The notes under the pieces were generated by a model that was given only the letters and a program-made list of their open reading frames with translations, was not told where the DNA came from and made no database searches. DNA of 64,000 nt from an uncultured Poribacteria bacterium (GTDB lineage Bacteria > Poribacteria > WGA-4E > WGA-3G): positions 868,001 to 932,000 of the forward strand of contig OX638316.1 in assembly GCA_951812525.1 (NCBI GenBank), given 5' to 3'. Both the position numbers and the translations under genes were made by a program. Shown piece after piece: positions 5,126 to 53,424 of this stretch (position 1 is its first letter; each line of letters starts with the position of its first letter).

Positions 5126-5845
5126 CTATCTTGGTCTGAATGTGCTACCTTTTTTTAGATTTCCCCAGGTGGTTGCAAGTTTGGTCCGCGGCTCGACAGG
5201 ACGTGGTTTTCCAGGACCGCCATTCTTGACATTTGGACCCGTGATCTCGACATCATCAAAATGTGCCTGTCCATCTGCAACAACGAGTCCGGCTTGCCCG
5301 CCTTTTAATGGATCATCGTCAATAGCCGTAAACACTTCGTCGTTGACTTTGAATTCAAGAGTGCCATCTTCGTGAATAGTGGCAGTCATCTCATACCACG
5401 TATCAATTTCGGCATCAAATGAATAGATGACGGGAAACCAATTGTCCCGAAGTGCCTTTACAAGTCGGACGGTGCCGAAAACGTAGTCTATAAAAAAGAG
5501 ATAACGGCTATCCTCCTCACCCCTATCGTGGAGTGTAAGTCCAATGCTTGGAGGTTCATTCTTGTCTTTTACTAATTTCGCACGACAAGAGAGAGAGTAG
5601 TTCTTCCATGTGAGTTCACCTGTGAGCCAGAGGCTCATAAAACCCGGCAGAAAGATTTCGCCGACGGCTTCACCGTCATCAATCCACCACTTTTCAACCT
5701 GTCGGTCAAGATTAAAAATTTTCCACTCACGGATATCTTTGTCCTCAAAATCGTCGCGCCATGTCCCCGCCAGGACAGGTTGCCATGCCTGTATTGAAAA
5801 GCAGGCGACCGTGATGATTGCGATTACTGGTATGAATTTTTTCAT
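5126..5845 (-). CDS. Secreted LamG/concanavalin-like domain protein
   Basis: 239 aa with a signal peptide (MKKFIPVIAIITVACFS, cleavage near VLAG). The mature part, from WRDDFEDKDIREWKIFN to HFDDVEITGPN, has the pattern of a laminin-G/DUF1080-like jelly-roll that binds or hydrolyses carbohydrate. No catalytic residues can be assigned. The tail KLATTWGNLKK resembles that of the LamG protein at 34723-35472 (KLTTVWARLKAN). Only 10 bp separate it from the upstream helicase gene stop, so it is probably the last gene of that transcript. Confidence 0.7.
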   Translation of the reverse strand: MKKFIPVIAIITVACFSIQAWQPVLAGTWRDDFEDKDIREWKIFNLDRQVEKWWIDDGEAVGEIFLPGFMSLWLTGELTWKNYSLSCRAKLVKDKNEPPSIGLTLHDRGEEDSRYLFFIDYVFGTVRLVKALRDNWFPVIYSFDAEIDTWYEMTATIHEDGTLEFKVNDEVFTAIDDDPLKGGQAGLVVADGQAHFDDVEITGPNVKNGGPGKPRPVEPRTKLATTWGNLKKGSTFRPR

Positions 5846-36719: not shown

Positions 36720-39047
36720 ATGGATTCTTTGAAAGATATTATTCAAGACTGTCACCAACAGCGGAAAAAATCGCTTCGACAACGAAAAACAATCGTAACA
36801 CCGGCACTCTATAAGGGCTATCCTTATCACTTCACTATCCATTGTGCCCGAGGATATCGGGTCAGACTCCATGATCTGGAGCAGGCTGATATCTCCTTTA
36901 TGCCGATAGGACACGCTCCTGAGTCCGACCATCCGCCAAGGGATTTTGGAGGCGAACGCTTCTTAAAACGTCAAGTAACACAAGACTGGATACGCAGACA
37001 ATGGTTTGAATCGTGGGGAATTCACGTGTACACTGGCATTCCTTCCGCAAGAGAGGGCGCGCAATGGCACGACATTAATTTCAAATATGATGCTATTTGC
37101 GCTGCACCAGATGCCGTTTTTGCTTGTATTGAGAAACTCATCGATTCAGTTGTGAATCCACTGTTGACATTGACGAAATCTGGTGGATTGCGGTTTTCTT
37201 GTAGAGTACCGGATTACCTCCATCCAAATACTAAACAGGAGAGACAGTATATCCACAAATACAGACCGACCCTAGACAACCCACACCATCGCGACATTTA
37301 TCTTGAAATTTTAGGGGACAAAGGACACAATTGCTGGGATGGACGTCATGAAATCTTGTTAGGTGCCTTGTTGGATCCACCTGTGATTATGAAAGACGTT
37401 TTGTTCGCGCCTATTGACACTCTCCGTAATGCGCTGCATGAACCTGCTCCATCATTAGAAGAAACCTCGGAAGTTACTTTTCAATCGGTTATCGTCTCCC
37501 CGCCGGTGTCAGATCCCGTAAATGAGAAAGTGATTGCGATCCGAGAAGGGAAACTAAGTCCATTAGCAATAAAACGTCCGTCTCCAGTGTTACACAAGTC
37601 AGCGTATAAGGATTCGTCGCCAAGGTTTCCTGCTTTACGCGTTCTCGAACACAATGAGAAAACAGGGCAGCTTTGCGCAGTCAATGAAGCGGGAACACGC
37701 CTACAGTTTCTCGAAGTTAGTATATCGAAAGATGTATTGGATGCATGGAATATCCAATACCAAGGGAGCACTTTAGGGAACTTTGCGAAGGCTTTACTTA
37801 ATGCTTTAGAAAACAAAAGACACGTAGAAGACGGTAAGGTCGTCACACGCGTTCACACGGTAATAGAGGCATTTGAGGGGCAGGAGGAGATACTTGTTCG
37901 ACAGATGGACACAGAGAATGTGAATCAGACTTTGTGGCACCAATTGAAACGTTTTTTTCAACATTACCAACGGGATGTCGATGCACCGATGATGTGGGAC
38001 GCTAGCGCGATGCGTTTTTGGGTGCCCTCGACACTCAATGATACATTCCCAGATGAAAAGATTGACGTTAATCGGGTTGAACCAACAGCGTGGTTGGCGG
38101 GAAACCGAGTTTTTCAGATTCGCACGGGTATTTATTCTGCGCATGATATTTTAAACTACGAAAACAGTTGGGATGATCTTGGACTCTCTGTAACCGGACA
38201 GCGGTTTTTTTCGGGTATCCGCGCAGAAATTGAGAGAGATCCAAACGTTCAGCATATACTCATCTGCAATCATCGTGCTGCCGAGCAGGTGGCAGACCTG
38301 ACATCAAAGGAAAACGTCCGTTTCCTACGCCATATTAAAAGAGCAGCCGATGTAGAAGTATTGCAGAGTGAATTTGAACTGGCAGATGTGATTTGGATCG
38401 TTGGTGCGCCGTACTGGCCACCGCACCTGATGTGGAAGCAAGCACAGATTTTGCTTGGAAACGATACCGAACCGCTGTGTTATGATGTAGAATTTAAGCC
38501 TTACCGTTATGAAGACGAACGGATCCAAGCACTGTGTGAACAGAATATTGTTGGTATTCTCACACAGATTATAAGACAGGCTGGACTGGATCGGGCAGAA
38601 AACAAGACAGTGGTATTGCTCACAGGGATGTCATTGCCTGAGATCACTAGCAGACCTGAAACATTGCTTTTTGACTGGGAAGATTTTGAGATTGCAGATA
38701 GACTCGATAAACTCGCAGAGACAATCACCACACGTCAGCGTTTTGAAGAGGAACGCGCGAACCTAACAGCGGAGTCCCATAGAGAGAAAGTTGTGGAGGT
38801 CTTGGGAGTCTCCAAAAGCCAAGCGAATCGTATTTTGACGAAACTTAGGGGTGGGAAACGTCCAACCATGCACGAGCAGATCCACACCCTTCTTGAAAGT
38901 GGCGACAAAAAGACAGCGGAATTAGTTTCAGCCATTGAGGGACATCCAAACGCCATAAAAAATGAACTCAAACGTCTCGTCGATACTGGTGAAATTGTAA
39001 AGGTTCGGCGGGCGGTCTACACGCTTCCGCCTTCGATCTCCTCATAG
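36720..39047 (+). CDS. Paralogue A: helicase-family protein lacking catalytic motifs
   Basis: 775 aa, first of four related genes. It shares the N-terminal domain (1-245; WHDINFKYDAIC at 116, LTKSGGLRFSCRV, WDGRHEILLG at 206) and the C-terminal HTH plus winged helix (about 685-770; VSKSQANRILTKLRGG, NAIKNELKRLVDTGEIVKV) with C and D. Compared with D it lacks the P-loop, the cysteine cluster and motif III. The Walker B equivalent reads NEAG (322-325) and motif VI reads IIRQAGLDR, with the GR pair lost. The frame is otherwise open and well conserved, so it is probably a non-catalytic paralogue rather than debris. No Shine-Dalgarno before the ATG. Function unknown. Confidence 0.8.
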   Translation: MDSLKDIIQDCHQQRKKSLRQRKTIVTPALYKGYPYHFTIHCARGYRVRLHDLEQADISFMPIGHAPESDHPPRDFGGERFLKRQVTQDWIRRQWFESWGIHVYTGIPSAREGAQWHDINFKYDAICAAPDAVFACIEKLIDSVVNPLLTLTKSGGLRFSCRVPDYLHPNTKQERQYIHKYRPTLDNPHHRDIYLEILGDKGHNCWDGRHEILLGALLDPPVIMKDVLFAPIDTLRNALHEPAPSLEETSEVTFQSVIVSPPVSDPVNEKVIAIREGKLSPLAIKRPSPVLHKSAYKDSSPRFPALRVLEHNEKTGQLCAVNEAGTRLQFLEVSISKDVLDAWNIQYQGSTLGNFAKALLNALENKRHVEDGKVVTRVHTVIEAFEGQEEILVRQMDTENVNQTLWHQLKRFFQHYQRDVDAPMMWDASAMRFWVPSTLNDTFPDEKIDVNRVEPTAWLAGNRVFQIRTGIYSAHDILNYENSWDDLGLSVTGQRFFSGIRAEIERDPNVQHILICNHRAAEQVADLTSKENVRFLRHIKRAADVEVLQSEFELADVIWIVGAPYWPPHLMWKQAQILLGNDTEPLCYDVEFKPYRYEDERIQALCEQNIVGILTQIIRQAGLDRAENKTVVLLTGMSLPEITSRPETLLFDWEDFEIADRLDKLAETITTRQRFEEERANLTAESHREKVVEVLGVSKSQANRILTKLRGGKRPTMHEQIHTLLESGDKKTAELVSAIEGHPNAIKNELKRLVDTGEIVKVRRAVYTLPPSISS

Positions 39048-39105
39048 GGTTGATTAACAGTAGTTGAAAAACTATAGATTTCAGTAATTTTATTCTAAAA
39101 AACCG

Positions 39106-39134
39106 TTGACTTTTTTCGTCGAAAATGGTATAAT
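39106..39134 (+). promoter_or_regulatory. Promoter upstream of tnpB
   Basis: TTGACT (39106-39111), 17-bp spacer, perfect TATAAT (39129-39134). Could be part of the insertion or belong to the array, as similar TTGACT boxes precede B, C and D. Confidence 0.65.
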
Positions 39135-39138
39135 AATA

Positions 39139-39227
39139 ATATCGTGTTGGCAAGCATGACAAGCGTAGTCGCAAGGCTACGTGCTTGCCTTCCCACTTGT
39201 CAGGGATAAAGGCACGATACACGATAT
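39139..39227 (+). other. Nested inverted repeats in tnpB leader (IS605-type left end)
   Basis: Outer arms ATATCGTGT (39139-39147) and ACACGATAT (39219-39227). Inside are GCAAGCA / TGCTTGC (39150-39156, 39182-39188), TGACAAG / CTTGTCA (39157-39163, 39196-39202) and CGTAG / CTACG (39164-39168, 39177-39181). The two 7-bp pairs interleave, so they form either alternative stems or a pseudoknot. Subterminal hairpins of this kind mark IS200/IS605 ends. Confidence 0.65.
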
Positions 39228-39230
39228 ACC

Positions 39231-40319
39231 ATGATTTTACGAACACAGAAGATAGAACTCAATCCGAATAATAAGCAATCCACGCTTATGTCCCAACACG
39301 CTGGCTATGCTCGTGTTGCTTTCAACTTCGCATTGTCGTCTTTCAATGCGGGTTTGGAAGTTGACGAATGGCGAACCTATCAAGACATAAAGCGTGAGTT
39401 CAACGCTGTCAAGCGTGATAGGTTTCCATGGTGTGACGGCTTATCGCAGAATGCCTCCAAGAATGCTATCCACAACTTCGGTGATGCCCTGACCCGTTGG
39501 AAAAGTAAACAGAACCGATTCCCTACATTTAGGAAACGATCTGGTAAATGCTCTTACCAAGCAGACAATGGCGTGGGAACGGTTGAAGTCTACAAAAAGC
39601 GTATCAAGTTACCCAAGATTGGGTGGGTCCGTATGCGAGAGGCGTTGCGGTTTACGGGTGAGGTATCAAAGGTTGTGGTGTCCAAGCGGAACGGACGCTG
39701 GTTTGTTTCCATACTCGTTAGATGCGATAGTAGCAATTACACACACCAACCCACTCTATTTGATGATAAGCAACCGATAGGCATTGATGTAGGTATCAAT
39801 ACGCTTGCCACTTGCTCTAATGGTGTGAAATATGAGAATCCACGCCCTCTGAAGCGGTATCAACGCAAGTTGAGGCGTGCGAACAAGGCTTTATCGCGCA
39901 AGTCCAAAGGTTCACAGAATTGGCAGAAAGCAAAGAAACGGCTTGGTGCAGTCCACTATCGTATAGGTTGTATCCGTGAAGATACACATCATAAAGCATC
40001 AACGGCTATTGTTAAACGTGCATCTGCTATCGGTATAGAAACACTGAATATCAGCGGACTGCTCAAGAACAGACGGCTTGCGAAGGCGTTGTTAGATTCT
40101 GCGTTGTCTGGTTTTCTTACGATGCTGAAATATAAAGCAGATAGGCGCCGTGTATCTATCACACAAGCCAATAGGTTCTTTGCCAGTTCAAAGACGTGTA
40201 GCAACTGCGGACACAAGAAAACGGACTTGACGCTCTCGGATCGCACGTACCACTGCACAGGTTGTGGCTTTGAATGCGATAGAGACCTCAACGCGGCTAT
40301 CAATCTGTGTCCGGTTTAG
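39231..40319 (+). CDS. tnpB: TnpB-family RNA-guided nuclease (IS605 OrfB)
   Basis: 362 aa, full length for TnpB. It has the N-terminal helix-turn-helix/REC-like part, then the split RuvC triad: Asp in GIDVGINTLAT, Glu in GIETLNISG, and Asp in CDRDLNAAINL. A zinc finger with CSNCG and CTGCG lies between the last two. All active-site residues are present. TnpB uses an omega RNA made from the element's 3' end to cut DNA and keep the transposon. No TnpA transposase gene accompanies it, so it depends on one elsewhere or is immobile. It interrupts the interval between paralogues A and B. Confidence 0.95.
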   Translation: MILRTQKIELNPNNKQSTLMSQHAGYARVAFNFALSSFNAGLEVDEWRTYQDIKREFNAVKRDRFPWCDGLSQNASKNAIHNFGDALTRWKSKQNRFPTFRKRSGKCSYQADNGVGTVEVYKKRIKLPKIGWVRMREALRFTGEVSKVVVSKRNGRWFVSILVRCDSSNYTHQPTLFDDKQPIGIDVGINTLATCSNGVKYENPRPLKRYQRKLRRANKALSRKSKGSQNWQKAKKRLGAVHYRIGCIREDTHHKASTAIVKRASAIGIETLNISGLLKNRRLAKALLDSALSGFLTMLKYKADRRRVSITQANRFFASSKTCSNCGHKKTDLTLSDRTYHCTGCGFECDRDLNAAINLCPV

Positions 40320-40440
40320 AACATCGTCGTCGCCACGAGTTGCGAGGAGACGTAAAACGCCTGTGGAGTCCGTGTAAGACCTCATTCGGAGGCAGTGGGT
40401 GCTGAAGCAGGAAGTATGACAAGAAGTCTACGGATTTCTA
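40320..40440 (+). ncRNA. Putative omega RNA/right-end region of the TnpB element
   Basis: The sequence directly after the tnpB stop contains short stems (CCTC..GAGG near 40380-40392) and a GGTGCTGAAGCAGGAAG segment. By family rule the guide scaffold overlaps the tnpB 3' end and the guide is the flanking DNA. Exact ends not determined. Confidence 0.4.
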
Positions 40441-40770
40441 TAGGTTCTACACAACGGTAAAAATAGATACCGCTGCCAACGCTCTTACCTACAGTATTTC
40501 AGTCATACCAATATGCCGCACGGCTACGACTTGTGTAGTAACCTGCCCCCTGGTGTCCGACGGACAACACTACCACACATATTATAGATCTAAGTTCACA
40601 CCATTCGGAGAACGAACGTGTCTTCTGTCAACCCGATTTTCACCGGATGGTGGACTCACTTCCTACCTTTTACAGAAAAACCAAACATTTCTAATTAAGT
40701 CATAAAAACTTGAATAAAAAATCACATTTGTGATAGGATTTAATTAAGCTGAGACTTTTATTTTCCTAGG

Positions 40771-40809
40771 ATTGCTTCCACTTTGAAGCCATACTGGAAG
40801 CAATTTTTA
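40771..40809 (+). terminator. Hairpin with T-run upstream of paralogue B
   Basis: Perfect 10-bp arms ATTGCTTCCA (40771-40780) and TGGAAGCAAT (40795-40804), then TTTTTAT. It has the form of a rho-independent terminator. It may end readthrough from tnpB. Confidence 0.65.
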
Positions 40810-40899
40810 TACAATCAGCGAGTTGGGCATGAGATGCCAAATCATGTGAATCATTAAGGGTTTCTTCGAGAAAATTGGGAATTTCTCTGCAGATTTTAT

Positions 40900-40928
40900 T
40901 TGACTTATAAGTCATACTATGGCATAAT
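40900..40928 (+). promoter_or_regulatory. Promoter for paralogue B
   Basis: TTGACT, 17-bp spacer, CATAAT. The TTGACTTATAAGT start and the CATAATTA around the -10 recur at 47320-47350 before paralogue D. Confidence 0.55.
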
Positions 40929-41145
40929 TAGTCATAATAAGACATTTTATTTTACATGTTATTTTTATGAAAACAATTTCTTTATATGGATTTTCGAGAT
41001 TTACCCAGTATTTCTACCGCAGTAGCAATTCAGGTTACTGCCGCGTAAAGATATGATATCACAGCGTACCCAACTTTCTGGCACCGTTGCTGGGCGTTGC
41101 TCACAGATATTTATCAAATGAAAGAAACTTGCTGGAGGTATGGAG

Positions 41146-43506
41146 ATGAGAAGAAACAACCGACAATCCCGTTCTTATGGTCTAACTATGAATGCTTTTA
41201 ACAATCTCATTCAACGTTGTCATCAACACAGGGAACAGCCGCTGCGACAGCGGAAAACAATCGTAACACCCGCGCTCTACAAGGAGTATCCTTATCATTT
41301 CACTGTCCAGTGCGCCCGAGGGTGTCCTGTGAGACTCTATGACCTCGAGCAGGCTGACATCTCATTTATGCCCATAGGACACGCGCCCAAGGCAGACCAT
41401 CCACCTAAGGATTTTGGCGGTGAACGATTCTTAAAACGACAAGGAACGCGAGACTGGATTCCCAGACGATGGTTTGCATCGTGGGGCATCCAGATTTACA
41501 CCGGGGTCCCCTCCGGGTGCCAAGGAGCGCAATGGCACGACATCTATTTTAAGTATGATGCTATTTGCGCTGCACCAGACGCTGTTGTTACCTGCATTGA
41601 GGCACTCGTTAACGCCGTCGCGAACCCGCTATTGACGTTGACAAATTCTGGGGAACTCCGCTTTTCTTGCAGAGTCTTGGATTACCTCCATCCAAATAAC
41701 GAACAGTCAACGGAGTATATTCATAGACACCGACCGACCGCAGACAATCCATATCACCGTGACGTGTATCTCGAAATCCTTGGGGAAGCAGGATATAGCC
41801 GCTGGGACGGACGCTATGATATTTTGCTTGGCAATCTGTTAGACCCACCTATTATCACCAAAGAGGTTCTCTTTGCTTCGATTGATGTGTTTCGCGAGGC
41901 ACTACATGAACCCGCACCACCAGTAGCAAATAACTTGGAACCTGCTTCTCAAGCTGCCTCTGTCGTGACATCGATGCCAGCACCTGTAGATGAGAAGGTG
42001 ATTGCGGTGCGGGAAGGGAAACTGAGTCCGTTGGCGATAAAACGTCCATCTCCTGTGCTGGACAAGTCGGAACATGACTACTCACCGCGAGACGTTTCTA
42101 CTTTGTGCGTTCTCGAACACGACCAGAAAACTGGCTGGCTTTGTGCCGTCGACGAAACAGGATCACATTTCTCGTTTGTTGAAATTAGTATATCGAAAGA
42201 CGTATTAGATGCATGGAGTGTCAACCAACAAGGTAATACTTTACGGAACTTCGCAAAAGCTTTACTCAATGCTTTAGAGAGCAAAAGCGAACTTTATGAG
42301 AATCCTGTTAGACGCGTGCGCATGACAATGCAAGCATTTGAGGCGCAGGAGGAAACGCTTATTCAGCAGATGCACGAAGATAATCTGAATCGGACGTTAT
42401 GGCACCAGTTGAAACGTTTTTTTCAACATTACCAGCGGGATGCCGATGCACCGATGGTGTGGGACCAAGGCGTGCTGCGTTTCTGGGTACCAGCACTCCT
42501 GAATGGTGAAAAGACATTGCCAGATGCAGTGAAAAACAGCGAATTGGAATCCGGACTATTAAGAAACCGAGTTTTTCAGATTCGCACGGGTATTTATTCT
42601 GCGCATGATATTTTAAACTACGAGAACAGTTGGGATGATCTTGGGCTCTCTGAAATCGGGCACCGATTTTTTTCCGGTATTCGCGCAGAAGCTGAGAGAG
42701 ATCCAAACGTCCAACACATCCTCATCTGCAATCAACAGGCTGCTGAACAAATGCCAGATCTTACATCAATGGAAAATGTTCGTACCCGGAGCCATATTAA
42801 AAGAGCAATCCATGTAGAAGCGTTGGGAAGTGAATTTGAGCTGGCAGATGTGATTTGGATCATCGGTGCACCTTATTGGCCCCCACCTCTTATGTGGAGG
42901 CAAGCACAGGCTTTGTTTGGAGACGATGAAAAACCGCTCTGTTATGATGTAGAGCTTAACCCGTACCGCTATGAAGACGAACGGATCCAAGCACTGTGTG
43001 AACAGAATGTCATTGGTATCCTTACAGAGATTATAGGTCAAGTGGGGTTGAACCGCTTGTCAAACAAGACAGTCGTACTGCTCACTGCTATGCCCCTGCC
43101 TGGTATCACTAACGGACCTGAAACATTGCTTTTTGACTGGGCAGACTTTGAGGTTGCTGATGGACTCGACAAACTCCCTGAGGTAATAGCCGAACGTCAG
43201 TGTTTTGAAAACGAACGGGACAATCTCACTGCGGAGTCCGGTAGAGAGAAAGTAGAGGAGATCTTGGGAATCTCCAAAAGTCAGGCGAACCGTGTGTTGA
43301 TGCAGCTAAGGGGTGGGAAAATCCAACGTGTTCCTTTCCACGAGCAGATTCACGCACTTCTTTCCGATGGTGAGAAAACGACAGCGGAACTCATTGACGC
43401 TATTGAGGGACATCCAGGTGCTGTGAAAAATGAGCTTAAACGCCTTGTTGATATAGGTGAGATTGTGAAAGTTCGTCGCGCCGTCTATGCCCTGCCGCCA
43501 GAGTAG
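41146..43506 (+). CDS. Paralogue B: helicase-family protein lacking catalytic motifs
   Basis: 786 aa from the ATG at 41146, chosen because GGAGG lies about 8 bp upstream, as in paralogue C; an ATG 6 bp earlier is too close to it. Same domain order as A: N-terminal domain (WHDIYFKYDAIC, LTNSGELRFSCRV, WDGRYDILLG), no P-loop or cysteine cluster, Walker B equivalent DETG in CAVDETGS, motif VI IIGQVGLNR (arginine changed to glutamine), and C-terminal HTH plus winged helix (GISKSQANRVLMQLRGG). It shares A's deletions, but its last ~150 residues and 5' leader are nearest to C. Probably non-catalytic. Function unknown. Confidence 0.8.
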   Translation: MRRNNRQSRSYGLTMNAFNNLIQRCHQHREQPLRQRKTIVTPALYKEYPYHFTVQCARGCPVRLYDLEQADISFMPIGHAPKADHPPKDFGGERFLKRQGTRDWIPRRWFASWGIQIYTGVPSGCQGAQWHDIYFKYDAICAAPDAVVTCIEALVNAVANPLLTLTNSGELRFSCRVLDYLHPNNEQSTEYIHRHRPTADNPYHRDVYLEILGEAGYSRWDGRYDILLGNLLDPPIITKEVLFASIDVFREALHEPAPPVANNLEPASQAASVVTSMPAPVDEKVIAVREGKLSPLAIKRPSPVLDKSEHDYSPRDVSTLCVLEHDQKTGWLCAVDETGSHFSFVEISISKDVLDAWSVNQQGNTLRNFAKALLNALESKSELYENPVRRVRMTMQAFEAQEETLIQQMHEDNLNRTLWHQLKRFFQHYQRDADAPMVWDQGVLRFWVPALLNGEKTLPDAVKNSELESGLLRNRVFQIRTGIYSAHDILNYENSWDDLGLSEIGHRFFSGIRAEAERDPNVQHILICNQQAAEQMPDLTSMENVRTRSHIKRAIHVEALGSEFELADVIWIIGAPYWPPPLMWRQAQALFGDDEKPLCYDVELNPYRYEDERIQALCEQNVIGILTEIIGQVGLNRLSNKTVVLLTAMPLPGITNGPETLLFDWADFEVADGLDKLPEVIAERQCFENERDNLTAESGREKVEEILGISKSQANRVLMQLRGGKIQRVPFHEQIHALLSDGEKTTAELIDAIEGHPGAVKNELKRLVDIGEIVKVRRAVYALPPE

Positions 43507-43615
43507 AAACATCAGTGGTTAGTAGTACTCAGCAGTCAGTCCACTGCCGAAGATTCACTTGACTTTTAATGCTAACTATAATATTTTGGGTCAGGTCATT
43601 GCTGGAGGTACAGAG

Positions 43616-46600
43616 ATGAGAAGATTCAACCAACGACCGCGCCCCCACGATCTAACTATGAACTCTTTAAAAAATCTAATTCAACGTTGTCACCAACGGC
43701 ACAAGAAACCACTTCGACAGCGGAAGACAGCGGCAACACCTGCCCTTGATAAGGGGCGTCCTTTTCATTTCACGGTTCAATGCGCCTGGAAATACCCTGT
43801 AAGGCTCTATGAACTCGAGCAAGCAGACATCTCTTTCATGCCGATAGGGCGCGCGCCCCATTATGACCACGGTCCAAGAGATTTTGGCGGTGAACGGTTC
43901 TTCAGACGGCAACACCCGGAAGACTGGAATATCCTACTCTGGCAGAGATCATGGGGTATTCAAATCTATACTGGCATACCTTCAGAATGCAATGATGCAC
44001 AATGGCACGACATTGATTTTAAGTATAGTGCGATTTGTTCTCACCCAGATGCTGTTTTTGCTTGTATCGAGGCACTCCTCATTTCCGTTGCGAACCCATT
44101 ATTGACGCTGACAAAGTCCGGCGGACTCCGCTTTTCTTGCAGGGTGCAGGATTATCTCCATCCGAATACTGACGATGCGAAGTATTACATCTATAAACAC
44201 ACATCGACCCTAGAAAATCCATATCACCGTGATGTGTACCTCGAAATCCTTGGAGAGTCAGGCTACAGCCGCTGGGATGCGCGCTATGAGATTCTGATCG
44301 GGAATCTATTAGATCCGCCTATTGTCGCCAAAGAAGTCCTCTTTGCTCCGCTTAATGTGCTTCGCGAAGCACTTCACGAACCTACACCATCCGGAGAAAA
44401 GGAATCCGAGTTCACTGCTCAAACTGAGACTGCCGCACCACCATCTCTGGGTTCGTATAACCTGGACCTCGCAAGAGATGTATTTTTGAGACGAGGATTT
44501 TTTTATATCCGAGAAGATAATAGCGTTCATTACTGGAACCGACCGGGCAGCATCGTTGGTGATGGAAACGTATCGCTATGGGAGCAAGAAGGTGGTGTCT
44601 GGGTTCGCGCATCTACGCCCAATACTGGTCTCCCGACGGAAGCAACACTCATAACAGATATCTGGGACGATACGGGTATCTTGTCACCGTTACCAGCTAC
44701 CGGATTGCCTGTGTCTGAGCAGATGCTTGCAGTTCGGGAAGGGAAACTGAGTCCACTGGCGGTAAAACGTCCATCTCCCGTGCTGTGCAAGCCAGAATCC
44801 ACAGAAAAGACTTACGGCACACTCGCAGAAAACGCCACTCAAATGGAGCGTGTTTTCAATGGGAACGCTCGCATTCTCGGACTTATTGCCGAGACAGGAG
44901 CAGGGAAGAATTACGCAGTAGAATCTTATGTCCGCAACGGCGGTGTAATCAGTTTAGCCTCGAAACCTCTGTTAGCAGCAGAAACAGAGCAACGCTTTCA
45001 AAAACGAAACCTATCGTCTTTTCTGCGCTGGAAACCTCGGATGCACTTGTGGGATCAGGTAAAAGATATACCGCTTGATATCCGGATAGCGACTCCCTTT
45101 CAACATGGAAATGTTTGCGAAGATCCTGAAAGGTGTGACACACTTGAGGCAAAGGGTGGAAATCCGAGCGAAAGTATCTGTCCGATGTGTCCGGTCTATA
45201 CAGAGTGTCAGCAGCACGGCTATTTATCGCAACTCACTACATTAAAAAACATCGACGCACAGATATTAGAAAACCCCACACTGTATTTAAATCCCGAATA
45301 CTCGGAAGTGACAGAAGAAATACTCAAATCGATCGATAATACAGAACGGCTTTGTATCATTGATGAAATGTCACCGCACTCCCTGTTCCTTTACTGCCGT
45401 GTAGCAAAGGAGACGTTAGTAGATTGGCGCGTAAACTGGCAACGGAGTGCTTTGGGATACTTTGCCAACGCTTTACTACATGCATTGGAAATCAAAAACG
45501 TACTTAACGATAATGCCGTCGGACGAATCCGCGCAGTGATGCACGCATTCACAGATCAAGAAAAAATGATCGTCCAACAGATGTGCCAAGTGAATATGCA
45601 AGGTAAAGTGGTGGCGCGTGAACTTGTTGATGATGAAACTGACAGGTTGTTGGCGCGCCTTTGCATTGAGTTTGAGGGAGGTATCCATGCTTATATTCCT
45701 TTGGACTCTAACGCTGCGGACAAACTCGCGGCAAAAGGTCAACCTGCTTTTGAACTTGACTCCTTTGAAGTAGACACAGAGGTGAAGATCCCGATGTCGA
45801 TGACCCAAGCCATTGCGTTGGGCACCCTAGAGGCATCAACCGTAGAGAATATTCAAGCATTTCCACGCGTCTACCAGAATCCAAATTGGACGCTTTGGCA
45901 TCAACTCAAACGTTTTTTCGCGTATTATACGCGAGATGCAGATGTCCCGATGTTATGGACTCGCAAGAATATACAGTTCTGGATACCACCGGTATTGCAT
46001 CCGAGCCTCAAACGTCTGCTGTTTATATCGTCAACGCTCTCTGAGTACTATCTCCGTAAGGCGTTTCCAGATGAGGAAATTGAAGTCACACACATCAAGC
46101 CGACGGCGTGGGTCCCAGGGAACCGAGTTTTTCAGATTCGCACGGGCATCTATCTACGACAAGCAATTTTTAACTACGACACCGACTGGGACGCTCTTGG
46201 CATGTCTAAAACGGGGCAGCGCTTTTTTCGCGGTATCTCCGCAGAAATTGAGAAAGATCCAAACGTTCAGCACGCGATTATCACCAACGCGCCAACACCA
46301 CAGCGATTGCAGCATATCGCAGCAAAAGAAAACGTTTGTCTCGTGACGAATTATAAAGCAGCAGAAAGGTTCGGTACAACCTTCGAAGCAGCAGAAGTGA
46401 TTTGGATGGTCGGTGTACCGCACTGGACACCCGGTATCTATTGGAGAGAATCACAGATTTTGTTTGGAAACGACGAAAAACCACTCTGTTATGAGGGAGA
46501 AACGGAATCTAATACCTACAAAGACGAACGCGTCCAGAGTGTTTATAAACAGGATGTTGTTGGTTTACTCACACAGATTATAGGTCGAATCGGATTGAAC

Positions 46601-47053
46601 CGCTTGTCAAATAAGACGATTGTATTGCTCACGGCTATGCCATTGCCTGACCTTACCGATAGACCTGAAACATTGCTTTTTGACTGGGAAGACTTTGAGA
46701 TCGCCGGTGGACTCGACAAACTCCCTGAGGTAATAGCCGAACGCCAGCGTTTTGAGACGGAACGAGACAATCTTACTGCCGAATCTAGCAGACAAAAAGT
46801 AGAGCAGGTTCTGGGAATTTCCAAAAGTCAGGCGAACCGTGTGTTGATGAAACTGAGGGGTGGTAAAATCCAACGTGTTCCCTTCCATGAGCAGATCCAC
46901 GCACTTCTTGAAGGTGGCGAGAAAACAACAACGGAACTCATTGACGCTATTGACGGACACCCAGGTGCCGTAAAAAATGAACTCAAACGCCTCGTTGATA
47001 TGGGTGAAATTGTAAAGGTTCGTCGAGCGGTTTATGCCCTGCCGTCAGAGTAG
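43616..47053 (+). CDS. Paralogue C: DinG/XPD-like Fe-S helicase family, altered Walker motifs
   Basis: 1145 aa from the ATG at 43616, which has GGAGG about 8 bp upstream; a TTG at 43559 lies in the promoter. Domains: N-terminal domain (WHDIDFKYSAIC, SGGLRFSCRV, WDARYEILIG); a short insert with SLGSYNLDLARDVF and HYWNRPG; P-loop AETGAGKN (nt 44888-44911), where the usual Ser/Thr is Asn; a cysteine cluster C-x5-C..C-x2-C-x5-C (nt ~45115-45207); Walker B IIDEMS instead of DEAx; motif III LFISSTLS; motif VI IIGRIGLNR; C-terminal HTH plus winged helix. XPD/DinG helicases unwind DNA with an Fe-S cluster between motifs I and II. ATP hydrolysis by C is uncertain because of the changed motifs. Confidence 0.82.
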   Translation: MRRFNQRPRPHDLTMNSLKNLIQRCHQRHKKPLRQRKTAATPALDKGRPFHFTVQCAWKYPVRLYELEQADISFMPIGRAPHYDHGPRDFGGERFFRRQHPEDWNILLWQRSWGIQIYTGIPSECNDAQWHDIDFKYSAICSHPDAVFACIEALLISVANPLLTLTKSGGLRFSCRVQDYLHPNTDDAKYYIYKHTSTLENPYHRDVYLEILGESGYSRWDARYEILIGNLLDPPIVAKEVLFAPLNVLREALHEPTPSGEKESEFTAQTETAAPPSLGSYNLDLARDVFLRRGFFYIREDNSVHYWNRPGSIVGDGNVSLWEQEGGVWVRASTPNTGLPTEATLITDIWDDTGILSPLPATGLPVSEQMLAVREGKLSPLAVKRPSPVLCKPESTEKTYGTLAENATQMERVFNGNARILGLIAETGAGKNYAVESYVRNGGVISLASKPLLAAETEQRFQKRNLSSFLRWKPRMHLWDQVKDIPLDIRIATPFQHGNVCEDPERCDTLEAKGGNPSESICPMCPVYTECQQHGYLSQLTTLKNIDAQILENPTLYLNPEYSEVTEEILKSIDNTERLCIIDEMSPHSLFLYCRVAKETLVDWRVNWQRSALGYFANALLHALEIKNVLNDNAVGRIRAVMHAFTDQEKMIVQQMCQVNMQGKVVARELVDDETDRLLARLCIEFEGGIHAYIPLDSNAADKLAAKGQPAFELDSFEVDTEVKIPMSMTQAIALGTLEASTVENIQAFPRVYQNPNWTLWHQLKRFFAYYTRDADVPMLWTRKNIQFWIPPVLHPSLKRLLFISSTLSEYYLRKAFPDEEIEVTHIKPTAWVPGNRVFQIRTGIYLRQAIFNYDTDWDALGMSKTGQRFFRGISAEIEKDPNVQHAIITNAPTPQRLQHIAAKENVCLVTNYKAAERFGTTFEAAEVIWMVGVPHWTPGIYWRESQILFGNDEKPLCYEGETESNTYKDERVQSVYKQDVVGLLTQIIGRIGLNRLSNKTIVLLTAMPLPDLTDRPETLLFDWEDFEIAGGLDKLPEVIAERQRFETERDNLTAESSRQKVEQVLGISKSQANRVLMKLRGGKIQRVPFHEQIHALLEGGEKTTTELIDAIDGHPGAVKNELKRLVDMGEIVKVRRAVYALPSE

Positions 47054-47655
47054 ATCCAGCGGCAGAATAACGGTCAGCAGTCAGATCCAGCAAACCTGTT
47101 ACGCTAGTGTTTTTAAATTCCTTCATGTTTTACCCCTTTACCAGAGATAAAGAGATACCCCTCCAAGCGAGTTATCGCCAGTGTTTGATACTCACTAACA
47201 AAAGAAATCGCTTCTATCCAGTATCCTTCAAGTGACCATCTGTATTTATGGTGAACCGTCAGAATACACAGATCATCAGTGAACGGTAAGAGCAAAGTCA
47301 TTCCTCGCCCTAGATCCACTTGACTTATAAGTTTTATTACGTCATAATTAACCCTATTAAGACGTATAAGGGATGCTTTCCCGATTAGGATAATAAGTGA
47401 CTTTGTATGCTTTTCTAAGCAATGGTATTTTTTGAATTTAATTTGACTTTTAATCTGAACCAATGTATAATTAAGTCATCTTAGCGCATTATATAAAATT
47501 ATAATGTTATAGATAAAATTGATGCGAAATGATATAATTGAATGCGTTATTTTGCTTAGGCAACAACATAGGTTATGCCACAATATTATGCCACATTAAT
47601 TCGAGAATCCCAAATCTGATAGAAACTGTGGTTTCATATCCATTTTTAAAAAACC
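47054..47655. promoter_or_regulatory. 602-bp control region upstream of paralogue D
   Basis: No gene seen. Promoter 1 is TTGACT-17-CATAAT (47320-47325, 47343-47348) and promoter 2 is TTGACT-17-TATAAT (47443-47448, 47466-47471). A direct repeat TTATGCCACA sits at 47573-47582 and 47586-47595 (13-bp period). The start of the stretch has a CAGCAGTCAG-type interspersed repeat (about 47071-47080). No ribosome site precedes the ATG at 47656. Confidence 0.55.
47443..47471 (+). promoter_or_regulatory. Promoter 2 for paralogue D
   Basis: TTGACT, exact 17-bp spacer, perfect TATAAT; about 185 bp from the start codon. Confidence 0.65.
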
Positions 47656-50600
47656 ATGAATTCCTTGAAAGGTATTATCCAGCAGTGCCATCAACGTCAT
47701 GAGAAACCTCTGCGGCAGCGCCGGACAGTAAGAACACCCGCGCTCTATAAGGGGCTGCCCTACCATTTCACCGTCTATTGCGGGCGGACATATCCTGTAA
47801 AACTCTATGAACTCGAACAGGCAGGTATCTCTTTTATGCCGATAGGACGTGCCCCTCACTACGATCACGGTCCAATGGATTTTGGGGGTGATCGGTTCTT
47901 CAGACGCCAAGGCATAGAGGATTGGAATCATGAGCTATGGCACAGATCATGGGGACTTCAGGTATACACTGGTATTCCGTCTGAACGCGACGGTGCACGC
48001 TGGCACGATTTCCAATTTAAATATGAAGCCTTATGCATCGCACCCGATGCTGTTCTCGACTGCATCGATACACTTATTAGTGCTGTTGCGAACCCTCTAC
48101 TGATGATTACAAAGACCGGTGGGCTCCGCTTCTCTTGTAGAATACCGGATTACCTTCATCCAAATACCGAGGCGGCAAAGCAATATATCTATAAACACAC
48201 GCCGACTGTGGGAAATCCGAATGGGCGCGATGTATACCTCGAAGTTTTTGGGGAAGAAGGATATAGTCAATGGGATGCGCGTTACGAGATTTTGCTTGGG
48301 AATCTGTCAGATCCACCTGTGATTTCTAAAGAGGTCCTTTTTGCCTCTGTTGATGCCCTTCGCGATGTCCTCCACGAACCGGCACCGTCCGGGCAAGATA
48401 GCCTGAAACCTGTTCTGCAGACCGCCCCCACTGCGCCACCATCCCTCGGTTCCCATAAACTCGACCTCGCAAAAGAGGCATTTATTAAGTCCAGTTTTTC
48501 TTATGCTGGACAAGACAACGGAACGCATTACTGGACCCGACCCCCGGGTGAAGGTGAAACGTCAGAAGTATCACTATGGGAAAGCGATGGGATTGTGTGG
48601 ATATGTGCATCTACATCTAATACCGGGCTGCCGATGGAAGCAACATCCATAACAGATGTCTGGGACGATACTGGCATTCTGCCGCCGATACCATCAACGG
48701 GGCTACCTGTATCCGATAAGGTGATTGCTGTGCGAGAACGAAAACTCAGTCCACTGGCGATAAAACGTCCTTCCGCCGCACTCCACAAGCCAGAAGATAC
48801 AAACACGGTCTACCATACACTTGAAGAGAACGCTCTTCAGATACAGCAGGCTTTCGACCAGACGACACGCATCACTGGACTTATTGCCGAAACAGGTGCA
48901 GGGAAAAGCCATGCCGTAGAATCCTATATCCGCATCGGAGGCAGAATCAGCTTAAATGCAGGGTACTGGACAGTAGAAGAAATAGAACAACGCTTTCAAG
49001 AACACAACTTGCCACCGTTCGCACGTCACAGATCTCGGAGATATCTGTGGAATCAAGTAAAAGAAATACCTGTTGAGGTGCGGATGGCGAATCCTTTTCA
49101 ACACGGCAATGTTTGTGAGGACTTCGAGCGATGTGACGCCCTCGAGAAGAAGGGTGGGGATCCAAATGAAAGTATCTGTCCACAGTGTCCCGTCTATACA
49201 GCGTGTCAGGAACGCGGCTATTTATCGCAACTTGCTATACTCCAACACACCGAGGCACAACTGTCGGGGACACCTCGGCTGTTTTTGGATCCACGATACT
49301 CAGAAGTAGTAACGGAAATACTCAAACCAGTCGATAACACAGAGCGACTTTGCATCATTGATGAAGCACAAGCACCCAACCTATTTTTTGAATGTAATGT
49401 ATCAAAAAATACATTGGAAAAATGGTGTGTAGATTGGCGAGGAAGTGCCTTAGGAAACTTTGCCAATGCCTTACTCAATGCATTAGAAACCCAAAGTGAG
49501 TCTGAGGACAGCCCGATCAGACGGATCCGGACAGTAACGCTCGCATTTCAACAGCACGAAGAGAAACTTATTAGACAAATGTGCCAAGTCAATGTGCGGG
49601 GTAAGGTTATTGCGCGCGGCGTTGTTGACGCTGAAACTGGAGAGGGGTTGGCGCACTTTACTATTGGGTTTGAAGGTGGTGTTGCTGCTTATATCCCGCT
49701 GGATAATAACGCTGCAGATACCCTTAAAGAAAAAGGGCTGCCCTTCTTTCCGCTCGACTCCTTTACACCCAACGAGAATATAGAAATCGCAATGCCGATG
49801 TCACAAGCGATTCAATTGGGTATCTTGAATACAGAAACCACACAGAATATTGAGGAATTCCCTACAGTCTATCCGGATCCAAACCAGACCCTTTGGCATC
49901 AACTAAAGCGTTTCTTTGCATATTATCTTCAGGATAACGATGCACCGATGATTTGGCATAACAAAGTTCTGCGGTTCTGGATGTCACCGATATTGCATCC
50001 GAACGTCAAACGCCTTTTGCTCATGTCGTCAACGCTCTCTGAAGAAGATTTACGCATAGCATTTCCAAGTGAAGAAATTAATGTTATTCGTATCAGACCG
50101 ACAGTATGGGTTTCGGGAAACAAGGTTTTTCAGACGCGCGCAGATATTCACGCCGTACAAACGCTGTTAGAACACGATCAAAGTTGGGATGTTATTCGCA
50201 TGTCTAAAACCGGACAGCGCATTTTTATGGGGATCCAAGCAGAGATTGAGAGGGATCCAAGCGTCAAGCATGCTATTGTTACCTACAGTCCAATTGCCAG
50301 ACAATTGACAGATTTTTCAGAAATGGAGAACGTCTGCTTTGTGACGGATTTCAAAACGTTGGAAAAGTTGGAGGAAGCTTTTGAAGCGACAGAAGTACTC
50401 TGGATAATTGGTATACCAATTTGGGAACATGGCATCATTTGGCGGCGAGCGCAGATTTTGTTCGGAAACGATGAGACCCTCCTTTCCTACGACCCAGGAA
50501 TAGGATCCATTCGCTATAAAGATGAACGGGTTCAAAGTGTTTACGAACAGATGGTTACTGGCACACTCAAAGATATTATAGGTCGTATGGGGTTAAACCG

Positions 50601-51063
50601 TTTCACAGATAAGAAGGTAGTGCTGGTCAATAACATGAAACTGTCCAATATTACCGACAGATCTGAAACACGCCTCTTTGACTGGGAAGATTTTGAAGTT
50701 GCTGGTGGGTTGCATAGGCTTGAGGAAACGATACGCACACGCCAGCGGTTTGAAACTGAACGTGCGAACATAACAGCCGATACCAGCAGAAATGAAGTAG
50801 AACGTATATTGGGATGCTCCTCACGGCAAGCAAACCGTTTGTTAAAAAAACTTAGAGGTGGGAACATTCCACGCGTTCTCTTCCGCGAACAGATCTTCTC
50901 TCTTCTTGCCAGTGGTGAGAAAAGGACATCCCAACTGGTTGATGCGATCGAAGGACACCCAACATCGGTAAGAAATGAACTCAAGCGTCTTGTCGATGCC
51001 GGCGAGATTATAAAGGTCCGATGGGGCATCTATGACCTCCCGTCAAATTATCCACATCGGTAG
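47656..51063 (+). CDS. Paralogue D: DinG/XPD-like Fe-S helicase with N-terminal unknown domain and C-terminal winged helix
   Basis: 1135 aa and the only paralogue with all helicase motifs. Residues 1-245: unrecognised domain (WHDFQFKYEALC at 116, TGGLRFSCRI at 154, WDARYEILLGNL at 206) with faint PrimPol-like order. About 262-350: insert with SLGSHKLDLAKEAF and HYWTRPPG. 411-418: Walker A AETGAGKS. Cys487, 493, 508, 511 and 517: probable 4Fe-4S site. 569-572: DEAQ. 791-793: SST (motif III). 974-982: IIGRMGLNR (motif VI). About 1045-1130: HTH (CSSRQANRLLKKLRGG) plus winged helix (SVRNELKRLVDAGEIIKV). The order motif I, Fe-S, DEAx matches XPD/DinG. A DNA helicase tied to replication, repair or defence is likely; the exact role is unknown. 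Confidence 0.85.
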   Translation: MNSLKGIIQQCHQRHEKPLRQRRTVRTPALYKGLPYHFTVYCGRTYPVKLYELEQAGISFMPIGRAPHYDHGPMDFGGDRFFRRQGIEDWNHELWHRSWGLQVYTGIPSERDGARWHDFQFKYEALCIAPDAVLDCIDTLISAVANPLLMITKTGGLRFSCRIPDYLHPNTEAAKQYIYKHTPTVGNPNGRDVYLEVFGEEGYSQWDARYEILLGNLSDPPVISKEVLFASVDALRDVLHEPAPSGQDSLKPVLQTAPTAPPSLGSHKLDLAKEAFIKSSFSYAGQDNGTHYWTRPPGEGETSEVSLWESDGIVWICASTSNTGLPMEATSITDVWDDTGILPPIPSTGLPVSDKVIAVRERKLSPLAIKRPSAALHKPEDTNTVYHTLEENALQIQQAFDQTTRITGLIAETGAGKSHAVESYIRIGGRISLNAGYWTVEEIEQRFQEHNLPPFARHRSRRYLWNQVKEIPVEVRMANPFQHGNVCEDFERCDALEKKGGDPNESICPQCPVYTACQERGYLSQLAILQHTEAQLSGTPRLFLDPRYSEVVTEILKPVDNTERLCIIDEAQAPNLFFECNVSKNTLEKWCVDWRGSALGNFANALLNALETQSESEDSPIRRIRTVTLAFQQHEEKLIRQMCQVNVRGKVIARGVVDAETGEGLAHFTIGFEGGVAAYIPLDNNAADTLKEKGLPFFPLDSFTPNENIEIAMPMSQAIQLGILNTETTQNIEEFPTVYPDPNQTLWHQLKRFFAYYLQDNDAPMIWHNKVLRFWMSPILHPNVKRLLLMSSTLSEEDLRIAFPSEEINVIRIRPTVWVSGNKVFQTRADIHAVQTLLEHDQSWDVIRMSKTGQRIFMGIQAEIERDPSVKHAIVTYSPIARQLTDFSEMENVCFVTDFKTLEKLEEAFEATEVLWIIGIPIWEHGIIWRRAQILFGNDETLLSYDPGIGSIRYKDERVQSVYEQMVTGTLKDIIGRMGLNRFTDKKVVLVNNMKLSNITDRSETRLFDWEDFEVAGGLHRLEETIRTRQRFETERANITADTSRNEVERILGCSSRQANRLLKKLRGGNIPRVLFREQIFSLLASGEKRTSQLVDAIEGHPTSVRNELKRLVDAGEIIKVRWGIYDLPSNYPHR

Positions 51064-51399
51064 CCAGCAGTCAACAACTGCAGACGGAAACTATGGCGAA
51101 TTATAAAGTATGTGGACATCTCCGAACAACAGATACAAAATACCTATCACCCTTAGTAAAGTTCAGTAGTTTGTAACAGAGAAACCATTTATTGCTGTCT
51201 GTCATAGATACAACTTACCTCTTCACCGCTGGCAAGGTTTCCTGACCTCGTCCTTTCACACCATATCATCAATTCTAAAATCTACTATAAACAGGCACAC
51301 TTCTGATACAGCCACTTGACGCGAAGGGCGTTAATTGATATGATAAAAATAACAGAATGAATTCAGAACCCACTTTTGAAGAAAACAAAAAAGGAAACT
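51064..51399. other. 336-bp gap with promoter
   Basis: No gene. It begins with a CCAGCAGTCAACAACTG interspersed repeat (about 51063-51080), includes a degraded GGCAAGGTTTCC..GACCTCG element (about 51230-51255), and ends with the promoter below. Confidence 0.45.
51316..51344 (+). promoter_or_regulatory. Promoter for SUMF1-sialidase gene
   Basis: TTGACG (51316-51321), 17-bp spacer, TATGAT (51339-51344), 56 bp before the ATG. Confidence 0.6.
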
Positions 51400-53424
51400 A
51401 TGCAAAAGTTAGCGATTGAGGGAGAGACACATACGAATTCACTCGGCATGCAGTTCGTCAGAATTGAATCCGGCACTTTTATGATGGGTTCAGAGGATGC
51501 CGCGTTATCAGATGAATTGATCGCCGAAAAGGCATATCTTCGCGATGGAGATCCCGACGAGAAACCGGTGCATCAAGTGACACTCACCACGCCATTCTAC
51601 ATCAGCACTTTTCAGGTCACCAATGCACACTACGAGGAATTCCAACCCGCCCACAATGAACTTCGTGGAAAACTCGGCTTTTCACAAGATGATGACGAGG
51701 CGGTTGTGTTCGTCGATTGGCACGATGCGACCCGTTTCTGCGAATGGCTTTCCGAAAAGGAGGATCTCCCGTATCGATTGCCAACTGAAGCCGAGTGGGA
51801 ATACGTCTGTCGTGCCGGTACAACGACTCATTTTCATACCGGTGATACTTTACCACCAGAGTTTCACAAAAACGTTGGTGAGATCTGGTACCCAGACGCC
51901 GGACGGGGCCGTGGCGCAGAAGAGGTGATGCCCCTGCATGTCGGTCAAACGCCAGTCAATGCATGGGGTGTCTACGATATGCACGGAAATGTAGAGGAGT
52001 GGTGCCAAGATTGGTATGGACCCTACAACCCGAATCCACAAACAGATCCGGTAGGTAGGCAAACAGGTCTGTATCGCGTTACACGCGGGGGTAGCCACTC
52101 CACGTTGCTCTGTTACTTACGTTCTGCCAATCGAATGGGAGCGGTGCCTGAAGACAAACACTGGTACATCGGATTTCGTGTCGTCTGCGGTGAAATGCCC
52201 CAGACCGCTCCTACTCCTGCACCAAAGGTGGCATTATGGGGACGTGATGTTAAACAAGAACATGTGAGTTCACCTGCCCTGGATACTCCATACTTCGCGG
52301 ACCCACTGACTTATGTTAAAATTCCGGAAGGTTCAAATGGACCACTTTTTTCAGCACACAACCATGTCCCAGCGATTACGGAATGTCCCAATGGTGATAT
52401 GTTCGCCGCTTGGTATTCATGCGTGACTGAACGCGGACGCGAACTGACAGTCGCTGCCAGTCGGCTACGATTTGGCGAAACGGAGTGGGATCCTGCCGAA
52501 CCCTTTTGGGGTCCACCCGATCGGAATAACCACGCTACCTCTCTGTGGCGAAACGAAAATGGACGGATTTATCATTTCAATGGACTCTCGGCTGCGGCGA
52601 CATGGGGTCCGTTGGCACTGGTAATGCGCTATTCCGATGATAACGGCGCGAATTGGTCGATACCTCGCTTTATTTCACCAGAACACCGCCTCCGACACAT
52701 GCCGATTGCCTCTGTCTTCCGGCGGCAGGACGGTTCCATACTCCTCGCCTGCGATGCAGTGAGCGGTGGAAACGGTGGCACAGCAATATGGCTCAGCAAC
52801 GATGATGGCGAAACGTGGTTTGATCCGGGTGCCGGGCAGCCTATTCCCGAATTCTCGGCAGGAAAAAGTGGTGGGTGGATCGCTGGTATCCACGCCGCTG
52901 TGGTCGAACTCACCGATGGAAGACTGATGGCTTATGGTCGCGGCGACACCATTGACGGACAGATGCCAAAGAGCCTCTCTTCGGATAGTGGGAAGACATG
53001 GTACTACAGTGCAAGTCCATTTCCAGTGCTTTCGGGTGGGCAACGATGCGTCCTGCTGCGACTTCAAGAGGGACCAATCTTCCTTGCCTCTTTCACAGGC
53101 GATCGGAGAGCACCGACACCGGTGCCCATTGTTGATGCATCTGGAAACGAACGCCTTGTTACCGGACTCTTTGGTGCCTTGTCCTACGACGACGGCGAAA
53201 CGTGGGAACACATCCGTCCGATTACAGATGACGGTGCTGATCGGGACATCGAAACGATGGATGGACGGACATTTACGATGGGACTAAACAGTGCTGAACC
53301 CGGAGGTTACCTCGCCGTTCACCACGGACAGAACGGAATCATCCATCTGATTAGCAGCCGTCAACATTATCGATTTAATCTCGCTTGGTTGAAAGAACCA
53401 CCGCCATCAAAAGTGAGGGATTAA
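51400..53424 (+). CDS. SUMF1/FGE-like domain fused to sialidase-like beta-propeller
   Basis: 674 aa from the ATG at 51400 (AAGGA precedes; a TTG at 51376 is less likely). Residues ~10-275: SUMF1-like domain (FVRIESGTFMMGSED, FQVTNAHYEEF, YRLPTEAEWEYVCRAG, YDMHGNVEEWCQDWYG, RVTRGGSHSTLLCYLRSAN). The FGE cysteine pair is not in place. Residues ~300-670: six-blade sialidase/BNR fold with Asp boxes (SNDDGETWFDP, SSDSGKTWYYS, SYDDGETWEHI). It has no signal peptide. It may hydrolyse or bind a sugar acid. It is followed after 5 bp by a PhyH dioxygenase, implying co-translation. Confidence 0.88.
   Translation: MQKLAIEGETHTNSLGMQFVRIESGTFMMGSEDAALSDELIAEKAYLRDGDPDEKPVHQVTLTTPFYISTFQVTNAHYEEFQPAHNELRGKLGFSQDDDEAVVFVDWHDATRFCEWLSEKEDLPYRLPTEAEWEYVCRAGTTTHFHTGDTLPPEFHKNVGEIWYPDAGRGRGAEEVMPLHVGQTPVNAWGVYDMHGNVEEWCQDWYGPYNPNPQTDPVGRQTGLYRVTRGGSHSTLLCYLRSANRMGAVPEDKHWYIGFRVVCGEMPQTAPTPAPKVALWGRDVKQEHVSSPALDTPYFADPLTYVKIPEGSNGPLFSAHNHVPAITECPNGDMFAAWYSCVTERGRELTVAASRLRFGETEWDPAEPFWGPPDRNNHATSLWRNENGRIYHFNGLSAAATWGPLALVMRYSDDNGANWSIPRFISPEHRLRHMPIASVFRRQDGSILLACDAVSGGNGGTAIWLSNDDGETWFDPGAGQPIPEFSAGKSGGWIAGIHAAVVELTDGRLMAYGRGDTIDGQMPKSLSSDSGKTWYYSASPFPVLSGGQRCVLLRLQEGPIFLASFTGDRRAPTPVPIVDASGNERLVTGLFGALSYDDGETWEHIRPITDDGADRDIETMDGRTFTMGLNSAEPGGYLAVHHGQNGIIHLISSRQHYRFNLAWLKEPPPSKVRD

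Follow-up and report, generated by a model that had tools for sequence, protein, structure and literature searches.

What kind of protein is encoded by four large neighbouring genes of an uncultured Poribacteria bacterium, and what could keep so many relatives of these genes in one chromosome? The genes lie in a stretch of 64,000 nucleotides (the window) of a genome represented by a single contig of 5.06 Mb. An earlier note on this DNA had read them as a tandem array of XPD/DinG-like helicase paralogues, and had suggested a replication module of an integrated element or a defence array.

Domain composition of the array genes

All four open reading frames, A to D, were confirmed on the plus strand (Table 1). 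They are homologous end to end, with 54–61% identity to D, and the full-length alignment bears out the proposal that they share an N-terminal domain and a C-terminal HTH with a winged helix. In gene C the ATPase motifs are degenerate (AETGAGKN, DEMS) and the Fe-S cysteines are retained; in genes A and B Walker A, the Fe-S cysteines and SST are all absent. Thus, the motif set in the XPD/DinG order described by the earlier note holds for D, but not for C, A or B. The start of gene B was picked by reading the sequence for GGAGG spacing.

Table 1. Positions of the array genes and of the domains and motifs of D (window coordinates), and of the sigma54-activator-like genes found beside family members.
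Feature	Coordinates	Strand	Description
Gene A	36720..39047	+	775 aa; AEP domain, then C-terminal half; without Walker A and Fe-S cysteines
Gene B	41146..43506	+	about 786 aa; short class like A; upstream ATG 41140, inner ATG 41188
Gene C	43616..47053	+	about 1145 aa; full length; alternative start 43559, inner ATG 43658
Gene D	47656..51063	+	1135 aa; sole family member of this genome whose P-loop, DE and SST are all intact
D, predicted AEP (PrimPol-type) fold	47770..48384	+	residues 39-243; WHD 116-118, R158, E196
D, small alpha-beta domain	48448..48690	+	residues 265-345; weakly KA1-like; HYW.RP stretch matches PF09250 protein
D, Walker A AETGAGKS	48886..48909	+	residues 411-418
D, Fe-S cysteines	49114..49206	+	C487, C493, C508, C511, C517
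D, motif II DEAQ	49360..49371	+	residues 569-572
D, motif III SST	50026..50034	+	residues 791-793
D, motif VI GR	50581..50586	+	residues 976-977
D, HTH GCSSRQANRLLKKLRGG	50773..50865	+	residues 1040-1070; strong conservation, dead copies included
D, C-terminal winged helix	50872..51045	+	ArsR/MarR and AbiEi_4 type
Sigma54-activator-like AAA+ gene	L039:10433-11536, L043:4392-5324, L044 9541-9699, L050:12064-13170		receiver-less; GAFTSA replacing GAFTGA; often divergent relative to family gene; sometimes remnant

The N-terminal domain had been called unknown. In the AlphaFold2 model of D, built with 36 relatives (mean pLDDT 78, pTM 0.69), residues 39–243 are predicted to resemble the pRN1 primase-polymerase (Z 9.0 over 166–167 residues). 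When the N-domain was modelled separately (pLDDT 71, medium confidence), pRN1 was at the top (Z 8.6), followed by the NrS-1 PrimPol and, lower, by the LigD polymerase; a Foldseek search with this isolated model gave no significant match. The sequence evidence for the putative AEP assignment is independent of the structural models: the N-domain profile matched a PF09250-positive protein of 1302 aa (hhalign E 3.4e-5, probability 72%), the alignment spanning motifs II and III and the subsequent HYW.RP stretch, and the PF09250 model itself gave no direct match to the family. The domain can now be assigned, by the models and the profile match, to a predicted PrimPol-type AEP fold. The matched protein (L189:2791-6696, plus strand), a PF09250 PrimPol with an unassigned middle part, comes from a genome that belongs to the same phylum (Poribacteria) and order, and is the closest sequence relative of the family N-domain that we found.

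The candidate AEP site departs from the standard one. The WHD of motif I is present in 89/90 copies; its second position is D or E in 59/90, and the canonical hDxD does not hold family-wide. Instead of the histidine of motif II, the canonical sxH, all copies scored (91/91) have an arginine (R158), and the acidic residue of motif III (E196) is found in 85/92. Residues 265–345 of D are similar to KA1 domains (Z about 6), which may reflect a common arrangement only.

In the same model, residues 387–1025 of D form two RecA-like domains in a predicted XPD/DinG fold (Z 12.3 to Xpd4, 10.9 to DinG; E 6.8e-10 for the D model against XPD). This predicted fold, the matches to the typeIV_DinG profile (3/36 members, best E 1.8e-7) and the motif order agree with each other in supporting the XPD/DinG-like core suggested by the earlier note. 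Compared by profile, the family and ordinary DinG are only weakly similar (E 0.0022), and the Pfam models Helicase_C_2 (PF13307) and DEAD_2 do not match the family. The single PF13307 match of the genome is an ordinary DinG gene elsewhere; these genomes encode it separately, as one gene. Between Walker A and DEAH lie four cysteines (487/508/511/517 in D), which all copies with the Fe-S region possess (84/84). In the AlphaFold2 model, residues 1073–1135 of D resemble winged helices of the ArsR/MarR type (Z about 9).

The comparison of A–D with Pfam, NCBIfam, PHROGs, PADLOC and PDB yielded only weak winged-helix or chance matches, and no model in these collections names the whole protein. In PADLOC the family matches nothing but the winged helices of AbiEi and, in a few cases, DinG; no defence system was called. 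We considered an AbiE toxin-antitoxin system and rejected it: only the winged helix matches AbiEi, and no conserved neighbour gene was found that could be the cognate AbiEii toxin. The likeness to CasDinG of type IV CRISPR consists of a profile match, and no conserved partner gene was observed around the family copies.

With the XPD/DinG (Rad3-type) Fe-S SF2 helicases, including CasDinG, the family has in common the motif order Walker A, four-cysteine insert, DEA[HQ], S[AS]T and GR, as well as the predicted fold of D 387–1025. In contrast to them, its helicase is situated behind an AEP and ahead of the HTH and winged helix, is missed by PF13307 and in most copies lacks the ATPase motifs. Phages and giant viruses encode proteins with an AEP and a UL9-like SF2 helicase, that is, a primase and an SF2 helicase in one protein; the Foldseek matches to them in BFVD reflect structural similarity only, and we know of no Fe-S cysteine quartet in these proteins. 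As far as the sections of the Kazlauskas 2018 survey (PMC5862659) used here describe them, the PrimPol-type AEP replication proteins of mobile elements (PF09250, pRN1 ORF904, PrimPol-PV1) share with the family an AEP, a small HYW.RP domain, a helicase and a winged helix. The family differs from them in having a helicase of the XPD/DinG type, which those sections do not mention, in the replaced motif II histidine, and in being chromosomal, multi-copy and PF09250-negative. According to the same sections, in mobile-element initiators the winged helix recognizes the origin, the AEP synthesizes the primer and the helicase unwinds DNA; by analogy, the predicted architecture of the family is that of a mobile-element initiator. 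The PrimPol-helicase kind of protein is already known; what is new is an undescribed family that is unusual for its repeated enzymatic loss under selection. The searchable literature yielded no report of a fusion between a primase and an XPD/DinG-type Fe-S helicase.

As to the array itself, the four copies are indeed neighbours; it is not a unique locus of the family, as there are 8 further ones on the same chromosome, and a TnpB gene (39231–40319, plus strand) separates A from B. Another species (G028) has a four-gene array with the same order A-B-C-D at the identical locus, the proteins being 67–73% identical to those in the window, and a flanking gene 88%. Thus, the array is old and does not result from recent amplification.

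The TnpB is a stand-alone, IS200/IS605-type protein with a Cas12f1-like TNB domain; in the homologous array of G028 (L053) the gap matching its site holds no called gene. Two other genes of the window may be mentioned: 51376–53424 (plus strand) encodes a formylglycine-generating-enzyme-like domain fused to a BNR/sialidase-like domain, and 12851–15466 (minus strand) is an 871-aa ORF whose N-terminus looks caspase-like by eye (YALVIGNGSY..NPLIGALNDV).

Loss of the ATPase motifs under purifying selection

The aligned set comprised 95 copies, each of 740 aa or more: 12 have an intact P-loop and DE (ATP+), 77 are dead, and the other 6 belong to the short class of A and B. Hence the catalytic Walker A and DE are both present in D and 11 others, and in 83/95 copies they are not. 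As most copies have no intact P-loop with DE, helicase activity does not define the family. The tree implies at least 7 independent losses of the ATPase motifs at any root position, the count being approximate given the FastTree topology with some weak branches.

Conservation of the Walker A columns in the dead copies is 30–54%, compared to 68% for the mean column. The four Fe-S cysteines are kept in 72/72 of these copies, W116 and D118 of AEP motif I in all of them, and the HTH residues G1053, A1059, R1061 and L1063 in nearly all. The median dN/dS is 0.236 for the dead, 0.181 for the ATP+ and 0.183 for the short copies (the pairs are not independent), the neighbour genes having lower values of roughly 0.04–0.14. 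For one dead copy, which keeps its synteny and continuous flanks in three species, omega is about 0.18. The dN/dS values rule out that the dead copies are pseudogenes.

The family can be regarded as a natural experiment, where the ATP motor was repeatedly lost, unlike the Fe-S site, the primase fold and the DNA-binding domains. With it one can ask experimentally whether the Fe-S domain serves a purpose by itself in helicases of this class, and in what way a replication protein is converted into a chromosomal regulator or barrier.

Range of the family and its probable role

Family members were found in 33/38 genomes of the genus and in 16/18 genomes of the sister genus; in other Poribacteria genomes there was no member, save one match to the winged helix alone. 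All named relatives belong to Candidatus Poribacteria, and no member was found in the plasmid, phage and IMG/VR collections searched. As 5/38 genomes of the genus do without it, the family is dispensable.

The window genome has 12 family genes at 9 loci including the array, one of them, D, with intact ATPase motifs (1/12). Among the captured copies of the other complete genomes sampled, the intact ones are 2/8 and 2/9 in two genomes and 0/3 in a third, these counts covering the copies present in the tree; in one more complete genome the only copy has its motifs intact and its reading frame disrupted.

The domain order of the family is a PrimPol-type AEP, a small alpha-beta domain, an XPD/DinG-like Fe-S helicase core, an HTH and a winged helix. 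Given this architecture together with the expansion, the repeated ATPase loss, the Fe-S retention and the purifying selection, A–D probably represent a new family of replication-initiator-type PrimPol-helicases, in which intact copies are few and the pseudo-enzyme paralogues are retained for binding DNA. In this scenario, an initiator of the mobile-element type would have turned into a dispersed chromosomal gene family in two sister genera of sponge-living Poribacteria, some sites being inherited vertically and others relocated. In the complete chromosomes sampled, the ATPase motifs are intact in 0–2 copies, and pseudo-enzymes are usually far more numerous (here C, A and B plus 8 more). Selection retains the AEP scaffold, both DNA-binding domains and, where a copy is full-length, the Fe-S domain.

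We infer a DNA-binding role for the paralogues, with interference or regulation as its outcome. Binding is the simplest reading, because most copies have neither the usual ATPase residues nor a canonical AEP site but are nevertheless under selection. The paralogues may bind specific DNA via the HTH and winged helix, the AEP and Fe-S domains holding single-strand/duplex junctions without unwinding. Fe-S domains of the XPD type touch single-stranded DNA at the fork, hence a pseudo-helicase could clamp such junctions. Bound paralogues might then block or modulate initiation at the cognate origins of related replicons, or act at their own promoters, and copies that are intact, like D, might retain the ability to unwind DNA. 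A more specific version, that the diversified chromosomal pseudo-enzymes are dominant-negative origin binders directed against related replicons, accompanied by an intact copy in many genomes, and that the Fe-S/arch region has a DNA-binding role independent of unwinding, seems rather unlikely in this full form.

Neighbourhoods, movement and alternative roles

At most sites the family gene has no companion, and no partner is conserved across about 80 neighbourhoods. One recurrent association involves a divergent sigma54-activator-like gene, or its remnant, which adjoins the family at 3/4 loci of one subfamily in the window genome and at 5–6/10 loci of this subfamily over four genomes, whereas the chance expectation estimated from the coordinates is about 2%. 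It points to a tentative alternative, that the proteins are transcription regulators or nucleoid-type proteins that arose from a replication protein, the enzymatic domains serving as a scaffold only; the HTH and winged helix being among the best conserved parts is consistent with this. However, the association is not obligate, as the gene is missing beside most copies, and a scaffold of 1100 residues with a retained Fe-S site and AEP core seems too much for a repressor. Beside the checked copies there was no consistent set of iterons and no shared operator. At two loci (L039:10108-10491, L044:8629-9527), small uncharacterised, mutually similar ORFs lie in the interval separating the family gene from its sigma54-activator-like neighbour.

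The family evolves faster than its neighbours (omega about 0.24 against 0.04–0.14), and each genome has many variants. Both observations would fit a defence array of fast-diversifying AEP-helicase proteins that block invading DNA. A precedent by analogy comes from Thermus, where the PrimPol (Ppol) of the mobile element ICETh2 hinders the uptake of environmental DNA (PMC7693054). Like the family, Ppol with the neighbouring helicase gene Hel combines a PrimPol with a helicase, here co-opted as a barrier to incoming DNA (PMC7693054); unlike the family, these are separate genes with another helicase type, single-copy and catalytic. We consider a defence role doubtful, since no nuclease or toxin domain, no co-localised defence genes and no PADLOC system were recognised.

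The presence of copies at many unrelated sites would fit single-gene selfish elements, self-mobile and leaving dead copies as decaying passengers. Some close relatives sit at unrelated sites, and copies that are not syntenic often have little in common outside the ORF. The clearest case is a pair from different species and different sites (L040/L055), with 94% DNA identity and dS of 0.12, compared to 0.8–1.3 for other homologues of this species pair, which shows recent transfer. As a general proof of horizontal movement, dS differences are weakened by a syntenic copy with continuous flanks that is also below the dS of its neighbours; some neighbour blocks have low dS as well, so that dS is a rough clock here and only the L040/L055 pair stays clear. 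The DNA shared by young pairs stops at different points (−1 to about +400; about −330 to +30; about −15 to +5), hence no transposon ends can be defined, and flank searches, swamped by other repeats, revealed neither transposon-like termini nor clean empty sites. Moreover, the family has no recognised nuclease, integrase or transposase domain, and its dead copies are under purifying selection, some of them being stable at one site in several species; several copies of the family are so in many species, e.g. next to an SNF2-type gene in about ten genomes. Thus, selfish elements appear an unlikely explanation.

The earlier note proposed the replication module of an integrated element, here taken as a plasmid or virus with an active module. 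The intact motifs of D would correspond to this, as would the PrimPol-helicase-winged-helix order, typical of the mobile-element replication proteins in the sections used of PMC5862659. It is nevertheless very improbable: the genes are mostly ATPase-dead and occur in isolation at many places in the chromosomes, no integrase, relaxase, structural gene or other partner is conserved in about 80 neighbourhoods, and the searches of plasmid, phage and viral collections gave no relatives.

Two further observations concern DNA exchange and repeats in these genomes. A repeat of roughly 130 bases in one genome (G000; e.g. L040 about 5699–5825), possibly a MITE, has at least 11 near-identical copies there, and related ones occur genus-wide. 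A block of neighbour genes (L141 6535–12000 against L047 9879–15500) has dS of 0.23–0.31, other genes of the species pair having about 1.0–1.4, which suggests that DNA blocks are often exchanged among these symbionts.
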